Source of the DNA: Ignavibacteria bacterium
GTDB lineage: Bacteria; Bacteroidota; Ignavibacteria; UBA10030
Assembly (NCBI GenBank): GCA_016873805.1
Contig: VGVZ01000013.1
Coordinates: 1 to 64,000, forward strand
Direction: 5' to 3'
Length of the DNA stretch: 64,000 nucleotides
Part shown: one piece after another, positions 3,796-58,877 of the stretch
Position numbering within the stretch: the stretch's first letter is position 1
Layout: each line of letters opens with the position of its first letter
Notes under the pieces: generated by a model
Seen by the model: the letters and a program-made list of their open reading frames with translations, nothing else
Told to the model about the DNA's origin: nothing
Database searches by the model: none
Program-made: the position numbers and the translations under genes

Positions 3796-4986
3796 TCATT
3801 TGAGCAGTTGAGTATGCCTCAGTTCGTAGTTTCCTTCAAAGTCCTTGTCCCGATAGATCTCGACTTTGACTGACGCCTTGTTCACAGTGATCTTGAGAAA
3901 CGAACTTCTTCTCCACTCCGTATGTTCCCAGAATCGTGTCGAATATTTCTCGACCTGAGAAGTACCCTTTTGACAGTTTTGATAAAATTCGTTCAGTCTG
4001 AAAATCGTCTGACTGTCAGTCAGATCTTTGTATGACTTCACAGGATCGAGTCCAAGATTGAAAATGAATTTCTTCAGCTCCTTGTCTTCTGATCTATACA
4101 ACTTCCCTATTGCAGTTTTCCAATCGACTCCCAAACGCTTTCCGTGCTCGACCTCTTTTAGTATTCGGGAATAGAGTTTTTCAGGCGTATAATCGCCTTC
4201 GTGACCGTAAATATGTCCGGAGCTCAGCAGCCATAGCCCGTTGATATTTGCATACGAGATACAATGAGTATGTCCGCTGATATATGCCGTAACTCCATAC
4301 TTTAGAAGAAGTTTTTGGAACTCCAGACTGTTGTCGGCGTATTGGTCCAGGGAATTTCCCAAATGACGTTGCGTTCCGTTATCCAGATCAAGGACGGGAA
4401 TGATCGGTTCGTGGCCAAAAACAAAGATGGACTTCTTCTTGTTTTGCTGGAGGTCACGTTCCAGCCATTCAAGTAGTTCGGGAACGATGTTTCCATCTGC
4501 CCCGGTATCTGTTTTTCCGTCAAAGTACACATTCAAAACAACAAGATGCACATCATTCCAATCAAAGGAATAGGTTGTTTCTTCGCTACCCGGCGGACCT
4601 TTTCTCACGAGTCGCGGAAGTGATCTATCCCCCTTGTTCAGATTTCTGAAGAACTGAATATTCGAATCGACTTCAATATCATGGTTTCCCACGACAAAGT
4701 ACCACGGATAGTCTTCACCAAACACTTTCTTCACCAGATTATCTGTGGCTTGCGACGGATCAAGATCTCCAACAAGAACCATGAAGGAACCTTGACCAAC
4801 GTTCTTCATCGCATCAAAACCACCCAGCGTGAATTCTTTTGAATGGTACTGTTCCGTTGCGTGTGATCGGTGATCACTTGCGACGATAAATGTGAGCCCG
4901 TCATCAGCCTGATGAGGTGAACACGATAGGGAAACAAAAATGATCGCAATCCAGATAACCATCAACGCACGGGCGTTCTTCTTCAC
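3796..4986 (-). CDS. Calcineurin-like metallophosphoesterase lipoprotein
   Basis: This 396-residue exported phosphoesterase probably acts in the periplasm as a lipid-anchored enzyme. The N-terminal signal ends in a lipobox (FVSLSCS, Cys22). The binuclear metal site of calcineurin-type phosphoesterases is complete: IVASDHRSH near residue 34, GDLD near 73, GNHDIE near 101, a later FGHEP near 190, and GHTH near 238. Translation appears to start at GTG preceded by GGAAACT. It is the last clear member of the run TonB receptor, phytase, organophosphate transporter, PfkB kinase, phosphoesterase, with 40 bases to the kinase gene. A role in removing phosphate from partly dephosphorylated inositol phosphates or other phosphate esters is an inference from that position; the family alone does not define a substrate. 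Confidence 0.82.
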   Translation of the reverse strand: MKKNARALMVIWIAIIFVSLSCSPHQADDGLTFIVASDHRSHATEQYHSKEFTLGGFDAMKNVGQGSFMVLVGDLDPSQATDNLVKKVFGEDYPWYFVVGNHDIEVDSNIQFFRNLNKGDRSLPRLVRKGPPGSEETTYSFDWNDVHLVVLNVYFDGKTDTGADGNIVPELLEWLERDLQQNKKKSIFVFGHEPIIPVLDLDNGTQRHLGNSLDQYADNSLEFQKLLLKYGVTAYISGHTHCISYANINGLWLLSSGHIYGHEGDYTPEKLYSRILKEVEHGKRLGVDWKTAIGKLYRSEDKELKKFIFNLGLDPVKSYKDLTDSQTIFRLNEFYQNCQKGTSQVEKYSTRFWEHTEWRRSSFLKITVNKASVKVEIYRDKDFEGNYELRHTQLLK

Positions 4987-5026
4987 TGGAGTTTCCTTTC
5001 ATATTGAAGAAAACATTTGCAGGTTC

Positions 5027-5917
5027 CTATGTGTATTTGGCTTCAATGAGAGCCACGACCTCATGTTCAGGCTGCAGAAATGGTCCTTCCCGTTCCATCT
5101 TCAGGCTTGTGACAGCAGCGGACCACACAATTGCACGTTCCGGCGACTCAGTCAGTCTTTTTGCCATGTAAGAGGCGATACAGGTATCGCCCCTGCCGCT
5201 CCGTCCGACCAGACTCTTCGCGTGGAAGTCGGCTTCATGGAAGACTCCATCGGCCAGAACGAGAATTCCTTTTTGGTGCGTAATGACAACTTCCCGAGGT
5301 CCCCATGATGCGATGATCGAGGCCGCTTTTCTCTTGTCCGCCTCCCCTGTCAACGCTTCGGCCTCGACAACATCTGCTTTCAGAACATCGATCAACGCGA
5401 GATACTCCTTCTTCTCCGGCCAGACAGCATTGACAAGCGTACAATCAGGCGCAATAGTCCGGATAAATCCCTGAATATCGGCAACAAGAATAGCCTTCTT
5501 CATTCTAAGGCTCTGTACCACGCCAAAAGGAATTTCGCCGCGGATCGAGCCGTTGATCAGAAACGCCTTTGCTTCGAGAGTATTGAATTGATCGGGAGTG
5601 AATGATCCAGCGGTCGCTGTACACTTCAGAATCCGTTTGTCGGGATCCGAGGTTGGATAGATGAGTTGCATGTGTGTTGAGGAAGGAGAAAAGGAGGGAT
5701 ACACATCAATTCCCACGCTGACAAGTCTTTCCAAAACATGTTTGTCTTCTCTGGCCAGGCGCGTCACAGCCGCAACGCGGAGTCCCAGCATGCGAGCTGC
5801 GTGCGCTCCATAGTTGAACCCTCCGCCGTCAAGCATTCGTGTATCAGAGGGCGTGATGATCGTATCTTTCGTGTAGTTCCCAAATATAACAATGTCGTAC
5901 TCTTTCACCGATTGCAC
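5027..5917 (-). CDS. iolK: PfkB-family inositol-cluster kinase, IolK (TM0415)-like
   Basis: This 296-residue cytoplasmic kinase of the ribokinase/PfkB family transfers phosphate from ATP to a sugar-like hydroxyl. The C-terminal PfkB signature GRSGRGDTCIASYMAKR carries the anion hole and the catalytic aspartate (near residue 247). From memory of the Thermotoga maritima TM0415 protein in the inositol cluster, shared blocks include ADIQGFIR, VEAEALTG, GRSGRGDTC and AAVTSLKM, so I place it in that subgroup rather than with fructokinases. Related archaeal and bacterial members phosphorylate myo-inositol. The GTG start is preceded by AGGAGA. It follows the organophosphate transporter gene by 21 bases, in a transcription run with phytase. 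It is detached from the iolM-G operon, unlike in Thermotoga. The exact substrate (myo-inositol or a keto acid downstream) is uncertain. Confidence 0.78.
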   Translation of the reverse strand: MQSVKEYDIVIFGNYTKDTIITPSDTRMLDGGGFNYGAHAARMLGLRVAAVTRLAREDKHVLERLVSVGIDVYPSFSPSSTHMQLIYPTSDPDKRILKCTATAGSFTPDQFNTLEAKAFLINGSIRGEIPFGVVQSLRMKKAILVADIQGFIRTIAPDCTLVNAVWPEKKEYLALIDVLKADVVEAEALTGEADKRKAASIIASWGPREVVITHQKGILVLADGVFHEADFHAKSLVGRSGRGDTCIASYMAKRLTESPERAIVWSAAVTSLKMEREGPFLQPEHEVVALIEAKYT

Positions 5918-5938
5918 GGCACAATCTCCTATCGTGAG

Positions 5939-7288
5939 CTATTCGCGGACTCTGGCCTTCCAGAGCGATGTTGCGAGGATGAATGAAACGACCGATGCCC
6001 CCACCCAGAAGAGGACGGCCGCGCTGAAGTCATACTGCCGCACACCATCCACCATGGTCATTCCTTTTTCAATCAGATAACCACTTATCCGTTCCTGCGT
6101 GGCGGCCCCGATGTAGCTGAAGACACCGATGAATCCCATCGCAGCGCCTGCCGCCTTCTTCGGTGCAATATCGGTAGCAAACAGACCACCAAGCGTGGTC
6201 ACGAGGCCGTTGAGCGAGAATCCGTACAGGAGGAATGCAAAGGTCAGCAAAACCGGTTGATGCGGTGGAGAGAAAAAGATGAGGAACAATGAAATGACTT
6301 CCAGGACTCCGAAAATCATTGTGACGGGGGGACGTCTCGCGTGAAAGAGCTTATCAGACGCGTAGCCGTATGCGACGCATCCGATAATCCCTGCCACAGT
6401 ATTCAATCCCAGCATCCCTCCCGCTTCAATGAGCGAGTATCCTTTTTCCTCTTGGAGATACAGGATCCCCCAGCTGTTGATAGCGTATCTGGTCACGTAC
6501 ATCGTCGCCGATGAAAGCGCCAGAATCCATATCGATCGGATTTTCAGGATGGATTTCTGCAAAGCCCAAATGCTTGGTTCCTGGTCCTGCACCGCCACCG
6601 GCACCCCGTGGTCATTTCTCCAATCAGCCACCGAGGGCAAGCCGAGCGTTTGCGGCCGGTCCTGCATATAGATATACACGAGAAACGAGACGATAATGCA
6701 GATGACAGCGGGTCCGATAAAACCCGCTTGCCAGCCAAAGTAGCTGACCAGTCCTGCAATACCGACAAAGGTCAATCCCTCACCGAGCGAATGCGCTGTG
6801 CTCCACACCCCATATCGGCGCCCCCGTTCATTGTTGCTGAACCATTGAGCCATCGCGACCATCCCCGACGGCGCACCGAATCCCTGAAACCAACCGTTCA
6901 ATCCCCACAGGACAACCCACGTCACCAAGCCGGTGGTAAATCCCATTGTCATGTTGATGAGGGCCGAGACCAAGACACCAAACGCAAAGAACTTCTTCAT
7001 GTTGGCATGGTCGGCCAGGAATCCGTTCGTGAGCTTGCCGAAGGCATACGTGTAAAAGATGGCCGAGCCGATGATGCCGAGTTCTTCGGCATTGAATATT
7101 CCGGCGTCGATCACAGGTTTTTTGACGACGGAGAGTGCGAGACGACACGTGTACACGAAGCCGTACCCGATTGTAATCGCCATCATAATCTGAAAGCGAT
7201 ACCGGCGGTATAAGGAGCTAACTCTCTCCGGATCCGCGATCAGGGCGATGTCTTGTCCGGTGGAAAAATAGCGGAGGGGATTCGTCAT
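5939..7288 (-). CDS. Organophosphate:phosphate antiporter family MFS transporter (GlpT/UhpT-like)
   Basis: This 449-residue inner-membrane protein has about 12 transmembrane helices and the features of the organophosphate:Pi antiporter family of MFS (GlpT, UhpT, UhpC). An N-terminal RYRFQIMMAITIGYGFVYTCR segment opens helix 1, and the family signature around GVWSTAHSLGEGLTF lies near residue 160, followed by GWQAGFIGP. Members exchange phosphate esters such as glycerol 3-phosphate or hexose 6-phosphate for inorganic phosphate. The gene sits between the phytase (42 bases upstream) and the inositol-type kinase (21 bases downstream), with AAAGGA before its ATG. Import of inositol monophosphate, or of another phosphate ester released by the phytase or phosphoesterase, is a reasonable inference, but the substrate is not readable from sequence. 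Confidence 0.82.
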   Translation of the reverse strand: MTNPLRYFSTGQDIALIADPERVSSLYRRYRFQIMMAITIGYGFVYTCRLALSVVKKPVIDAGIFNAEELGIIGSAIFYTYAFGKLTNGFLADHANMKKFFAFGVLVSALINMTMGFTTGLVTWVVLWGLNGWFQGFGAPSGMVAMAQWFSNNERGRRYGVWSTAHSLGEGLTFVGIAGLVSYFGWQAGFIGPAVICIIVSFLVYIYMQDRPQTLGLPSVADWRNDHGVPVAVQDQEPSIWALQKSILKIRSIWILALSSATMYVTRYAINSWGILYLQEEKGYSLIEAGGMLGLNTVAGIIGCVAYGYASDKLFHARRPPVTMIFGVLEVISLFLIFFSPPHQPVLLTFAFLLYGFSLNGLVTTLGGLFATDIAPKKAAGAAMGFIGVFSYIGAATQERISGYLIEKGMTMVDGVRQYDFSAAVLFWVGASVVSFILATSLWKARVRE

Positions 7289-55190: not shown

Positions 55191-55336
55191 CCGATACGCG
55201 TTCCTTCGTTTGTGTGAACAAAGTAATTTGGTTGAGAGTACTTCATGGAGATTCTCTCAAACGGGCGGCAGGTACGGGCCAATCCAGCCCTTAATTGTTG
55301 CTTGCACATATGCTGTTAAATTGTTATCATTCGGCC

Positions 55337-55627
55337 GTGATCCTCGACTTTGCGGACAAAACGACGGAAGATATTTACAATGGGCTTGATACCAAGGCAG
55401 CCCGTCGGATTTCGCAAAACGTGTGGTCGGTGGCAATCCGAAAACTGGATATGCTGAACGCTGCATCAGATCTGCGGGACTTGCGAGTCCCACCGGCCAA
55501 CCGATTGGAAGCATTGAGAGGGAAGTGGTTGGGTCACCACTCCATTCGTATCAATGACCAGTATCGGATAGTATTCAGATGGATTGACGGCCATGCAAAA
55601 GACGTATTGATAACAGACTATCATTGA
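55337..55627 (+). CDS. higB: HigB-type toxin (RelE superfamily)
   Basis: This RelE-like ribonuclease toxin of about 96 residues cleaves mRNA on the ribosome and is neutralised by the downstream antitoxin. Family similarity starts at ILDFADKTTEDIYNGL and continues through VWSVAIRKLDMLNAASDLRD, VPPANRLEALRGKWLGHHSI, and the C-terminal RINDQYRIVFRW with VLITDYH, where catalytic Arg, Tyr and His residues lie. I chose the GTG at 55337, because homology begins there; an in-frame ATG at 55310 would add 9 residues. It is one of only two plus-strand genes in the window and sits with higA between attC-like elements 4 and 5. Confidence 0.9.
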   Translation: MILDFADKTTEDIYNGLDTKAARRISQNVWSVAIRKLDMLNAASDLRDLRVPPANRLEALRGKWLGHHSIRINDQYRIVFRWIDGHAKDVLITDYH

Positions 55628-55640
55628 AAGGAAAAAGGTT

Positions 55641-55910
55641 ATGATTCCAAAGAACCGAAAGCCGACACATCCTGGAGAGATTCTGTTGGAAGAATTTCTG
55701 AAGCCGCGCGGGATGAGCCAGGTTGAACTTGCCAAGAAGATGGGTGTACCGGTCCAACGGGTGAACACACTTATTAATGGCAAGCGCGATATGACTGCGG
55801 AGACGGCCATATTGTTGTCTCGTGTATTGAAGACATCCTCTGAATTTTGGATGAACCTTCAGGTTGCTTACGACCTTTTTGAAGCTCGACGGGCGATGGA
55901 AGCTGCGTAA
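55641..55910 (+). CDS. higA: HigA-type antitoxin
   Basis: This 89-residue antitoxin has an XRE-type helix-turn-helix (MSQVELAKKMGVPVQRVNTL, residues 25-44) and the family N-terminal HPGEILLEEFLKPRG. It binds HigB and represses their shared promoter. It follows higB by 13 bases, with GGAAA upstream of the ATG, in the toxin-first order typical of higBA. TSSEFWMNLQVAYDL at the C-terminus is the usual HigA toxin-contact helix. Confidence 0.93.
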   Translation: MIPKNRKPTHPGEILLEEFLKPRGMSQVELAKKMGVPVQRVNTLINGKRDMTAETAILLSRVLKTSSEFWMNLQVAYDLFEARRAMEAA

Positions 55911-56178: not shown

Positions 56179-56868
56179 TCACAGGAGATCCATTCTCTTT
56201 GTGAAACATTGAAGGAGATTATCTTCAGCGACACGAAAAGCTGTACCTCTATTTCGAACCTGACCGTTGCTTTTCAAATGCATACGAAGATCAACAACAA
56301 CGTGACCTTGCCTGATTAGTTTAAGCAATCCTATCTTACTCGGACTCCTGAGAAGGTATGCCTCGTTGTAGTGGAATTCTTCTCTGCCTTTCTGGTCGAG
56401 TCTTGAATCTGCTATTACGAGAATGAGCGATGGAAGCTTCTGAGCAAAATACTCCATGAGAGCATCATCGTTCCAAGAAGCGATTATCTTGCCTTTTCGG
56501 TCTCGGAGTTGAAGGGCTTGCTTGGTTGTAGTGAGTCTTAGACCCTGTGGGTTTGACTTGACAGTGACAGTGCACTTAAGAGCTTTGCGTCCAGTGCTGT
56601 CTCGATAGCCATATTGCTTGATGATGGAGGATTGAGGAGATTTCCAAACGCCACGATTGAATGTGAACATCGTGACGAATGAAGAAGCGGGCCTACGTTT
56701 GGATTTGAGCTCGATTCGACCCAGATCGGGCAATCTGACATTGTTCTCTTTCAACCCGAGTATCGTTTCGAGCGTGTAGCCTACGCCCGTGTTCCCCTTT
56801 CGCTTGGAGGGCATGAATCCTTGGGCGGAAATGTTCCTGAGCTTTGACTTGAATTGTCGCAGGTTCAT
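56179..56868 (-). CDS. MvaI/BcnI-family type II restriction endonuclease
   Basis: This 229-residue endonuclease resembles the MvaI/BcnI family, monomeric enzymes that cut CCWGG or CCSGG. The catalytic region is visible as GNTGVGYTLETILGLKENNV (near residue 25) followed by RLPDLGRIELKSKRRPASSF (near 45), giving the D...E-x-K nuclease triad. VTMFTF and WKSP follow, and NRGTAFRV near the end belongs to the family's C-terminal region. The gene begins 7 bases after the methyltransferase stop codon, in one transcription run with it. A target of CCWGG/CCSGG type is inferred from the family. Confidence 0.85.
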   Translation of the reverse strand: MNLRQFKSKLRNISAQGFMPSKRKGNTGVGYTLETILGLKENNVRLPDLGRIELKSKRRPASSFVTMFTFNRGVWKSPQSSIIKQYGYRDSTGRKALKCTVTVKSNPQGLRLTTTKQALQLRDRKGKIIASWNDDALMEYFAQKLPSLILVIADSRLDQKGREEFHYNEAYLLRSPSKIGLLKLIRQGHVVVDLRMHLKSNGQVRNRGTAFRVAEDNLLQCFTKRMDLL

Positions 56869-56875
56869 TGATTGC

Positions 56876-58138
56876 TCATTTCTGCTTCCTCATTACGACG
56901 ATGTACTCATTAAGCATTGTTGTGTCCAGTTTTCCTGGCTCGTTGGTGGGACTGTTTTTGGCGGGCATTCTCTTATTTGGAATGCTGCGGAGGAAGGTAT
57001 CAACGTGGGCGAACTTGTTTCTCTCAAAGAAGGACACGATGGCTTCGTCGGTGGGCAGCGTGACACCTTTGACTCTTCGGTTACCAACGACGTAACAAAC
57101 AGAACCAGCACGCCGAATGAGTCGAGAAACATTGTGAATAGACTTTTCGAGATCAATGTAGAACGACGCAATTTCTAGAGACCGCTTATGGTCGACGTCG
57201 GAGATCTTCTTGATAGCCTTGTCGAGCGGGGGGCAATCAAACTTTGGAATATGCCCGTTGGATTGGCCACCCATTAGTTTCTTGTCAACAAGATTGGGTG
57301 TTTCAAGATCGAGCCATTGACTTGATAGACGTGAGTATTGGCCGTAAGCAACCGTAGTGCGTGAGTCACCATAGGGCGGGGAAGTGATAATCAAATCGAA
57401 ATCGGAAGAAGCCAACGTATTGGGTATCCCTTCTACAGTGTTGAAATCGTAGATAGAGACCGACGACTTTCGTGGTGACTGCTTCAAGGCAGCCAAGTAT
57501 GCGATCATCCCTTTGCGGTTGCGAGACAGTTTGTTTTCGATGATACCATAGACATCTGGATTGAACGACTCAATTTGTTTGTCAGTCATTCGGAACAGCT
57601 TGAACTCTGCGTTTCGTGTCAGGGAAGTTTCTCGGACAGTCTCGCTGTATGCAACCTTGAAGAAATCTCTGACATCTTCGTTGTCTATCTGCCAAATGTA
57701 TTGCTTAAGATATGTGAGTTTGCGGATAACGTCTGGCTGAAACCAAAAATCGATGTTTGGGAAACTTGGCAATTGCAAGACGCTAGGTTCACCTTCAAAG
57801 CGAGCCTTGAAAGCAAACTCGGAAAAGTCCTTGAGATACAGGTCAAGTATCTGCTGTCGGACGGGGGTTGTTTTTGTTTTCGCAATAAGGCGTGCGAGCG
57901 GATTAAGGTCAGTTCCCGCAGCATCGATACCTCTTAGCTGTGCTTCAACGAGCGATGTTCCTGTGCCGCAATAGGGATCAAAGAGTCTCTTGGCTGAGGA
58001 GCCGAAAAGCTCAAGCAGCTTAGAAGGTATTTGTGGAATCATTCGAGCTGGGTAATCGTGGAAACAATGGGTCATCGCCCTTGTGTTGGTACCACGAAAC
58101 TCCCAGTCGATTTGAGTGTGATGCTGAACTGCCCGCAT
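56876..58138 (-). CDS. DNA methyltransferase, probably N4-cytosine (TSPPY type)
   Basis: This 420-residue modification enzyme transfers a methyl group from S-adenosylmethionine to DNA. The catalytic motif IV reads DLIITSPPYGDSRTTVAYG (near residue 254), the SPPY form usual for N4-cytosine methyltransferases. The methionine-binding motif I is LFDPYCGTGTSLVEAQLRGI (near 53), with GTDLNPLARLIA as motif II. It lies between two restriction endonuclease genes, 4 bases from the upstream one and 7 bases from the downstream one. MvaI- and BcnI-type systems use N4-cytosine methylation, which fits the downstream nuclease. N6-adenine specificity is less likely but not excluded. Confidence 0.88.
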   Translation of the reverse strand: MRAVQHHTQIDWEFRGTNTRAMTHCFHDYPARMIPQIPSKLLELFGSSAKRLFDPYCGTGTSLVEAQLRGIDAAGTDLNPLARLIAKTKTTPVRQQILDLYLKDFSEFAFKARFEGEPSVLQLPSFPNIDFWFQPDVIRKLTYLKQYIWQIDNEDVRDFFKVAYSETVRETSLTRNAEFKLFRMTDKQIESFNPDVYGIIENKLSRNRKGMIAYLAALKQSPRKSSVSIYDFNTVEGIPNTLASSDFDLIITSPPYGDSRTTVAYGQYSRLSSQWLDLETPNLVDKKLMGGQSNGHIPKFDCPPLDKAIKKISDVDHKRSLEIASFYIDLEKSIHNVSRLIRRAGSVCYVVGNRRVKGVTLPTDEAIVSFFERNKFAHVDTFLRSIPNKRMPAKNSPTNEPGKLDTTMLNEYIVVMRKQK

Positions 58139-58142
58139 AGGT

Positions 58143-58877
58143 TCACCTGTAGATTTGGTTTAAGTCCTGAACAATCTCAGAGAAATTCCGAACCCGTTCG
58201 CCCCAGTCACCAGCCTTCGTAATATACACAAAATCAAAGAAACGCAGCATTCCTGCTTGTTGCGGGTTGGTAATCTCCTCATAGAAGTTAGTTGTGATTA
58301 GTCCAACCTTGAAGCTTACCTGCGCTTGGTAAGAGAGTTCGTACTTAGCTTTGATGGACTGACAATCGTCGGCAGTGGCGATGTCCATCAATAGCTTCCA
58401 TTTGTAAGTCTGGCCAACCCGTTCTCGAAGTGAGGTCTTCATTGAGTAGATGATCACAGGTTTTTGGAGCGTGTGTGCTTTGCTGTAAATGAGCAGGTCA
58501 ATATCAGGTTTCTGGACATCGTCGCCGACTTTGATTGTTGCATACTCGTTGATGATTCGATGTCGCTTGGGTTTAAGCGTAATCTCAATGTCCTGAGAGA
58601 GAATGCCCGCCTGTTGATGTCGTACGAGTGCGTAGGCAACCAATCCTTGAAAAGCATTGCCTGCCACTGTCTTGCTTGCCTGGTCAAAGTCGCTGATGAC
58701 TCCTTCGTCAATTCGAGCTTGGATGAGTTCACCAACTTCTGGGATGCTGCCTTGCATAATGTCCGTAAGATATGTCATTGCTTCGGTGAGTCCGACTTCT
58801 TGGGCCTTCCTTTCGAACTTCTGTTTGAGCGGATTGAAGTAATATCGTGCGTCGAGTTCTTTGACCAGACCGTTCAA
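58143..58877 (-). CDS. Putative type II restriction endonuclease, BsaWI-like
   Basis: This 244-residue protein resembles the BsaWI-type restriction endonucleases. The C-terminal half contains DVQKPDIDLLIYSKAHTLQK followed by VIIYSMKTSLRERVGQTYKW (near residues 125-160), a PD...S-x-K catalytic arrangement with the RER-Q helix common to this group. The N-terminal part is helical (QARIDEGVISDFDQASKTVA). Translation appears to start at TTG with GGAGAT upstream. It is the first gene of a three-gene run with the methyltransferase and the MvaI-like nuclease. The assignment rests on motif resemblance; BsaWI cuts WCCGGW, but specificity here is unknown. Confidence 0.7.
   Translation of the reverse strand: MNGLVKELDARYYFNPLKQKFERKAQEVGLTEAMTYLTDIMQGSIPEVGELIQARIDEGVISDFDQASKTVAGNAFQGLVAYALVRHQQAGILSQDIEITLKPKRHRIINEYATIKVGDDVQKPDIDLLIYSKAHTLQKPVIIYSMKTSLRERVGQTYKWKLLMDIATADDCQSIKAKYELSYQAQVSFKVGLITTNFYEEITNPQQAGMLRFFDFVYITKAGDWGERVRNFSEIVQDLNQIYR

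Follow-up and report, generated by a model that had tools for sequence, protein, structure and literature searches.

A restriction-modification cluster in which one methyltransferase probably guards against two unrelated nucleases with the same CC...GG site

INTRODUCTION

Can a single DNA methyltransferase (MTase) protect its host from two nucleases of different ancestry? The question is raised by a three-gene cluster in a stretch of 64,000 nucleotides from an Ignavibacteria bacterium (assembly GCA_016873805.1, contig VGVZ01000013.1, positions 1 to 64,000; the whole stretch is called the window hereafter), where one MTase gene stands between the genes of two endonucleases, nuclease 1 and nuclease 2 (Table 1). 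A preliminary description of this cluster had named the nucleases BsaWI-like and MvaI/BcnI-like, and had reasoned that these families recognize different sequences, so that the one MTase would have to protect against both, or one nuclease must have changed its target or be inactive.

Here we argue that the cluster is probably a Type II restriction-modification (R-M) system in which two nucleases of different ancestry act on the same CC...GG site and one MTase guards against both. In this arrangement, nuclease 1 would be a PfoI/PspGI/EcoRII-like enzyme of the CCGG family that flips the central base and cuts in front of the first C in a site of the CCWGG or CCNGG type. Nuclease 2 would belong to the MvaI/BcnI enzymes, and its known relatives cleave CCWGG or CCSGG after the CC. 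Reading the same site and cutting it at different positions, the two would be neoschizomers, like EcoRII and MvaI, and a single methyl mark, probably on the N4 of cytosine, would shield the host from both. The term neoschizomers is applied to EcoRII and MvaI, 'different enzymes altogether', in a review (PMC4081073).

RESULTS

Three co-directional minus-strand open reading frames (ORFs), all open, fill positions 56179-58877 in the order nuclease 1 - MTase - nuclease 2, with spacers of 4 bp (nuclease 1/MTase) and 7 bp (MTase/nuclease 2). All three products scored above the cut-off of a Pfam profile. The coordinates and Pfam names of the preliminary description therefore stood, and the matches in Pfam and the PDB, along with the gene order, bore out its picture of two unrelated nuclease families flanking one SPPY-type MTase.

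Nuclease 1 matched RE_BsaWI (PF18643; E 2e-13, 50.6 bits, cut-off 26.2) over profile positions 8-67 (60/105). Its predicted model, built from an alignment of 56 relatives (mean predicted local distance difference test score 94), has the CCGG-family fold. The best solved match was PfoI (Foldseek 4e-10; Z 22.9 over 232 residues, 2.8 Å), followed by AgeI (Z 14.1), PspGI (13.8), EcoRII-C (12.3) and Ecl18kI (11.8), and then by SgrAI and BsaWI (10.8). PfoI was also the sole plausible match (E 0.002) when the 56-sequence profile was compared with the PDB. D125-x-D127...K147 of nuclease 1 aligns with the permuted active site of PfoI, E167-x-D169...K187, and Q66, present in 56/56 relatives, aligns with PfoI Q105, which is described as contacting both guanines (PMC6344858). 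Residues D125, D127, K147, R151 and E152 were likewise invariant in 56/56 relatives. R151-E152-R153 is the R-(D/E)R recognition motif of the CCGG family, and Q66 supplies the family's minor-groove N/Q.

The relatives were collected in one scan of GTDB genomes, for which nuclease 1 and a relative served as queries and which yielded 70 loci. The scan used the patterns GQTYKWK and YLT[DE][IV]MQ[GN]; the conservation of GQTYKWK is thus biased and the set may be incomplete. This matters for the position ten residues after K147, where nuclease 1 has T157 and BsaWI has the acid D175: T157 was invariant in 56/56 aligned relatives, but it lies inside the GQTYKWK pattern by which most of them were found. 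An acid at K+10 belongs to the BsaWI catalytic set as described in PMC4652773, and that set is incomplete in nuclease 1. A simple BsaWI enzyme cutting WCCGGW was rejected for nuclease 1, since its fold is much closer to that of PfoI, it has no acid at K+10 and the partner MTases described below point to CC-N-GG. The earlier name 'BsaWI-like' therefore held for the Pfam profile and is misleading for the fold; the predicted model of this protein does have a nuclease fold. PfoI, PspGI, EcoRII and Ecl18kI are described as cutting CCNGG or CCWGG cores and flipping the central base (PMC6344858). Because of its likeness to PfoI and the Dcm-like partners of its relatives, nuclease 1 is predicted to flip the base at CCNGG/CCWGG too. 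No match to nuclease 1 was obtained among plasmids and phages, and none in PADLOC.

Nuclease 2 matched MvaI_BcnI (PF15515; E 6e-39, 134.8 bits, cut-off 25) over residues 8-219, and in the PDB it matched R.MvaI (2oa9, E 4e-21) and R.BcnI (2odh, E 5e-12). The D...E-x-K residues of MvaI are catalytic, and D48, E53 and K55 of nuclease 2 fall at these positions of the R.MvaI active site. Judged by its sequence, nuclease 2 is an ordinary member of the MvaI/BcnI family.

The MTase matched N6_N4_Mtase (PF01555; 33.9 bits, cut-off 26.7) and has DPYCGTG at 54 and SPPY at 253. The order of motif I, a long insert and then SPPY is that of the alpha class of amino-MTases, in which the recognition domain lies between the motif I part and motif IV. 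The mark is probably N4-methylcytosine (m4C). An alpha-type m4C MTase of CCWGG, M.TpsD3VI, has been reported (PMC5578853). The methylome papers listed for m4C at CCWGG or CCNGG yielded no MTase sequence for comparison. MTases of ∼729 amino acids at L057 (5680-7869), L058 (4302-6491) and L015 (3179-5365) are extended at the N-terminus by about 250 residues; the start of this extension resembles a DNA-binding segment by eye, and no Pfam match to it was found in L057.

We surveyed which MTase stands beside each nuclease family. The window's MTase family was the neighbour at 55/70 nuclease-1 loci (some cut by contig ends) and a 5-methylcytosine (m5C) MTase at 12/70. The other 3/70 were unassigned: at L038 the MTase is gone and the nuclease is truncated, and L064 and L106 lie at contig ends. 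The same MTase family was paired with an MvaI/BcnI nuclease in 8 of the 9 plasmid records opened (of 53 matches), in 4 of the 5 genomes of the phylum opened (of 24 with a match) and in the three order-level relatives L030-L032; nuclease 1 was not found in these plasmid records, genomes and relatives. Other genomes thus have either nuclease family without the other beside this MTase family, which apparently gives protection for each.

In a tree of 68 MTases, which left out those shorter than 300 amino acids or with E above 1e-50, the partner labels needed 14 changes, against a mean of 20.5 after shuffling. The labels are thus clustered, yet both kinds of partner are interleaved, with repeated switches; L041 was labelled as having both although it carries two systems, and the long branches L017, L018 and L019 make parts of the tree unsure. 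The MTases of L137 and L138, which have an MvaI-type partner, are nested in a clade with nuclease-1-type partners. That of L137 is 80% identical overall to that of L078, which has a nuclease-1 partner, and 75% identical over residues 90-245, which span the region from the motif I part to motif IV. That near-identical MTases carry different nuclease families is the strongest sign of a target shared by the two families. Two further arrangements were seen in the survey. At L018 (5199-5889, Azobacteroides), an intact MTase accompanies an MvaI-type nuclease that is broken across two frames; the nuclease may be decaying while the mark is retained. In two other genomes of the phylum (L027, 3230-5925; L029, 1963-4632), a distant relative of nuclease 1 lies between two different MTases.

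The m5C MTases stand beside a sister branch of nuclease 1, and they were 43-50% identical to Escherichia coli Dcm in 10/10 cases compared; of the other two among the 12, one is a contig-end fragment and one was missed by the filter. The recognition-region segment of the L051 m5C MTase matched two Dcm-like chains in the PDB (E 3e-14), followed by chance-level matches; neither M.HhaI nor M.HaeIII was among its PDB matches, though the whole protein matches both. A Vsr gene (PF03852, E 2e-27) lies at the L051 locus too. Dcm methylates CCWGG, as stated in PMC10609329. The Dcm-like partners fit CCWGG and CCNGG alike, because CCNGG MTases may have similar recognition regions.

The partner swapping on one MTase family and the Dcm-like partners seen in the sister branch make it probable that both nucleases cut sites of the CCWGG/CCNGG type and that a single MTase can protect against both. 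The earlier premise that the two families must recognize different sequences is not supported: nuclease 1 is of the PfoI type, the CCGG family is described as including base-flipping CCWGG and CCNGG cutters (PMC6344858), and relatives of nuclease 1 have either this MTase family or Dcm-like MTases as partners. Among the options of the preliminary description, protection by one MTase is the best supported; nothing points to an inactive nuclease, as the catalytic residues expected of each family are present in both.

One MTase with both nucleases was found in the window and in three further lineages, with other gene orders (Table 1). In a tree of 64 nuclease-1 sequences, which left out seven short ones and L027-L029 and from which L040 was dropped (same genome as L026), all double-set loci, L064 and L041 fell into one 12-row clade with support of 100/100. 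An MvaI-type neighbour was present in 7/12 rows of this clade and in 0/52 elsewhere (Fisher p 1e-6); without L041 and with near-copies collapsed it was present in 4/9 rows of the clade (p ∼2e-4). These p values are only a guide, as the rows share kinship. In the same clade, nuclease 1 stands alone beside the MTase at L026/L040, L039, L042 and L049, and PF15515 had no match in G435 (the genome of L026/L040) or in the genomes of L042 and L049. The genome of L039, Raineya orbicola, has its nuclease-1 system (4971-6958) and a separate MvaI-type system (L147, 208-2108); the two systems have separate MTases, both of this family. At L038 (5001-5912), in an Ignavibacteria metagenome-assembled genome (MAG; G055 = G440, same order as the window's genome), nuclease 1 is 88% identical, its last 13 residues are replaced, and the MTase and MvaI genes are gone; an MvaI-type gene lies elsewhere in that genome with a different MTase.

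Table 1. Genes of the cluster and gene orders at loci that carry both nuclease families (1, nuclease 1; 2, MvaI-type nuclease; M, MTase)
Feature or locus	Position	Strand	Description
Nuclease 1	58143..58877	minus	244 amino acids; TTG start after AGGAGA; predicted PfoI-type CCGG-family endonuclease, Pfam RE_BsaWI
MTase (probably shared)	56876..58138	minus	420 amino acids; SPPY type, PF01555, motif I before motif IV (alpha order)
Nuclease 2	56179..56868	minus	229 amino acids; MvaI/BcnI family endonuclease, PF15515
Window			order 1-M-2
L044, Thermoproteota MAG (archaeal)			order 1-2, MTase convergent
L054, Caloranaerobacter azorensis			order helix-turn-helix (HTH) gene-1-2, MTase convergent
L057 and L058, near-identical Clostridia MAGs			order 2-1, MTase convergent; HTH gene before nuclease 2 in L058
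L064			looks like the double sets above; contig ends before MTase
L041			two adjacent complete systems with different MTases, not a double set

The recurrence could also mark a replacement in progress, in which the MTase passes between nucleases that share a target, the double set being only a transient state before one of them is lost. The repeated switches of partner on the MTase tree would fit this, as would the solitary nuclease-1 loci within the double-set clade, the broken MvaI-type gene of L018 and the truncated nuclease 1 of L038. However, both nucleases of the window are whole with conserved catalytic residues, and the double set occurs in several distant lineages, all within one nuclease-1 clade. 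We regard replacement as possible, though on the unlikely side.

A different division of labour would have the MTase cover the sites of one nuclease and another MTase of the genome those of the other. The search for a second MTase gave 9 PF01555 matches in the genome, 7 of them over the cut-off, elsewhere or in the cluster, and Pfam places nuclease 1 with BsaWI, a cutter of WCCGGW; both agree with different targets. But the genome has no m5C MTase, the window's MTase as query at E 1e-20 found a single copy of its family, nuclease 1 is nearest to PfoI, and in other genomes each nuclease family stands beside this MTase family without the other nuclease. Different targets are therefore doubtful.

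It is improbable that one nuclease is dead or has taken another role, such as nicking of mismatched or hemimethylated sites by the MvaI-type protein. The MvaI/BcnI family is related to MutH, and nuclease 1 is without the counterpart of PfoI E113, which would suit one or the other; D48/E53/K55 of nuclease 2 and D125/D127/K147 of nuclease 1, however, are kept in every double set examined, and the E113A mutant of PfoI is described as keeping 2% activity (PMC6344858). A heteromeric enzyme with both nuclease proteins in one complex and one MTase, as in BslI or BbvCI (two-subunit nucleases are described in PMC4081073), would explain the adjacent genes and the recurrence with one nuclease-1 clade, but is very unlikely given the many genomes with one nuclease family beside the MTase and the other absent, the varying gene order and the complete active sites of both proteins.

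The G+C content of the cluster is 47%, below the 54-57% of both flanks, which suggests from base composition that the cluster was acquired. The same families adjoin one another in many other genomes, and their clustering is therefore far beyond chance. A HigB-like toxin gene (PF05015, E 7e-21) and a HigA antitoxin gene (TIGR02607, E 2e-29) lie tail-to-tail with the cluster at 55295-55910 on the plus strand, with the same low G+C content. Promoter-like and terminator-like sites were not more frequent than in shuffled sequence, and scans of viral contigs with each of the three proteins gave no relative.

DISCUSSION

We conclude that a target shared by both nucleases under one MTase is the probable reading of this cluster. 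Several points weigh against it. Nuclease 1 has N74 in place of PfoI E113 and is without the second acid of BsaWI. No relative found is more than 55-57% identical to the MTase of the window, so that the argument from near-identity has to draw on other members of its family. MvaI/BcnI nucleases split into cutters of CCWGG and of CCSGG, and W versus S could vary within the MTase family; if all targets were identical, the paired systems of Raineya orbicola and L041 would be redundant. Other N6/N4 MTases of the genome might protect. Finally, avoidance of CCNGG is slight and not stronger than that of control words: over 463,436 genome bases (the window plus 399,436), the observed/expected ratios were 0.87 for CCWGG, 0.87 for CCSGG and 0.98 for WCCGGW, against 0.86 for GGWCC and 0.81 for GCWGC as controls. 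In the same counts (window and L158-L177), CTAG stood at 0.40 of expectation (119 versus 300), the strongest depletion among the counted words.

What might a second nuclease add? MvaI, unlike EcoRII and PspGI, is not blocked by Dcm methylation, and complementary sensitivity to foreign marks is one possible gain. Neoschizomers of unrelated recognition mechanism, a base-flipping |CCWGG cutter and an MvaI-type CC|WGG cutter, might be retained together because this is advantageous. The self-mark would stop both and a foreign mark, such as Dcm-type C-5 methylation, only one; phages and plasmids with the wrong methylation could then not escape, and two staggered cuts per site would leave ends not simply re-sealed. 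We offer this as a tentative and rather unlikely idea.

Every part of the cluster comes from a known family, and what is new is their combination and the fact that it recurs. Literature searches on two nucleases with one MTase, on neoschizomers sharing an MTase and on PfoI with MvaI found no such system described among the papers listed, with thin coverage of subscription papers. The exchange of two unrelated nuclease lineages on one methylase family indicates a shared target, and the specificity of an uncharacterized nuclease family may thus be predicted from its MTase partners. A recurrent natural system with two probable neoschizomers under one mark also offers a way to ask how R-M systems change or add nucleases without death of the host.

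Compared with known systems, the nearest to nuclease 1 is PfoI (T|CCNGGA), by solved fold and by the alignment of active site and Q66; the two are 20-21% identical, E113 is replaced, and nuclease 1 keeps the canonical RER motif. With BsaWI (W|CCGGW) nuclease 1 shares PF18643, the CCGG fold and the R-(D/E)R motif. It differs from BsaWI in lacking the acid at D175, in a fold score to BsaWI lower than those to PfoI, AgeI, PspGI, EcoRII-C and Ecl18kI, and in the partner MTases of its relatives, which favour CC-N-GG over WCCGGW. PspGI and EcoRII (|CCWGG) and Ecl18kI (|CCNGG) are of the CCGG family too, and the Dcm-like MTases beside nuclease-1 relatives add to the likeness; they have no sequence-level match to nuclease 1, and the window adds a second nuclease and an alpha-type amino-MTase. 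The MvaI (CC|WGG) and BcnI (CC|SGG) systems have, to our knowledge, one nuclease, unlike the two in the window, though nuclease 2 belongs to their family at the sequence level and both plasmids and genomes carry such nucleases beside this MTase family. Two nuclease genes per R-M cluster are also found with BslI, BbvCI and other two-subunit nucleases, but there both subunits are required for one enzyme, whereas the window's nuclease families each also occur alone with the MTase.

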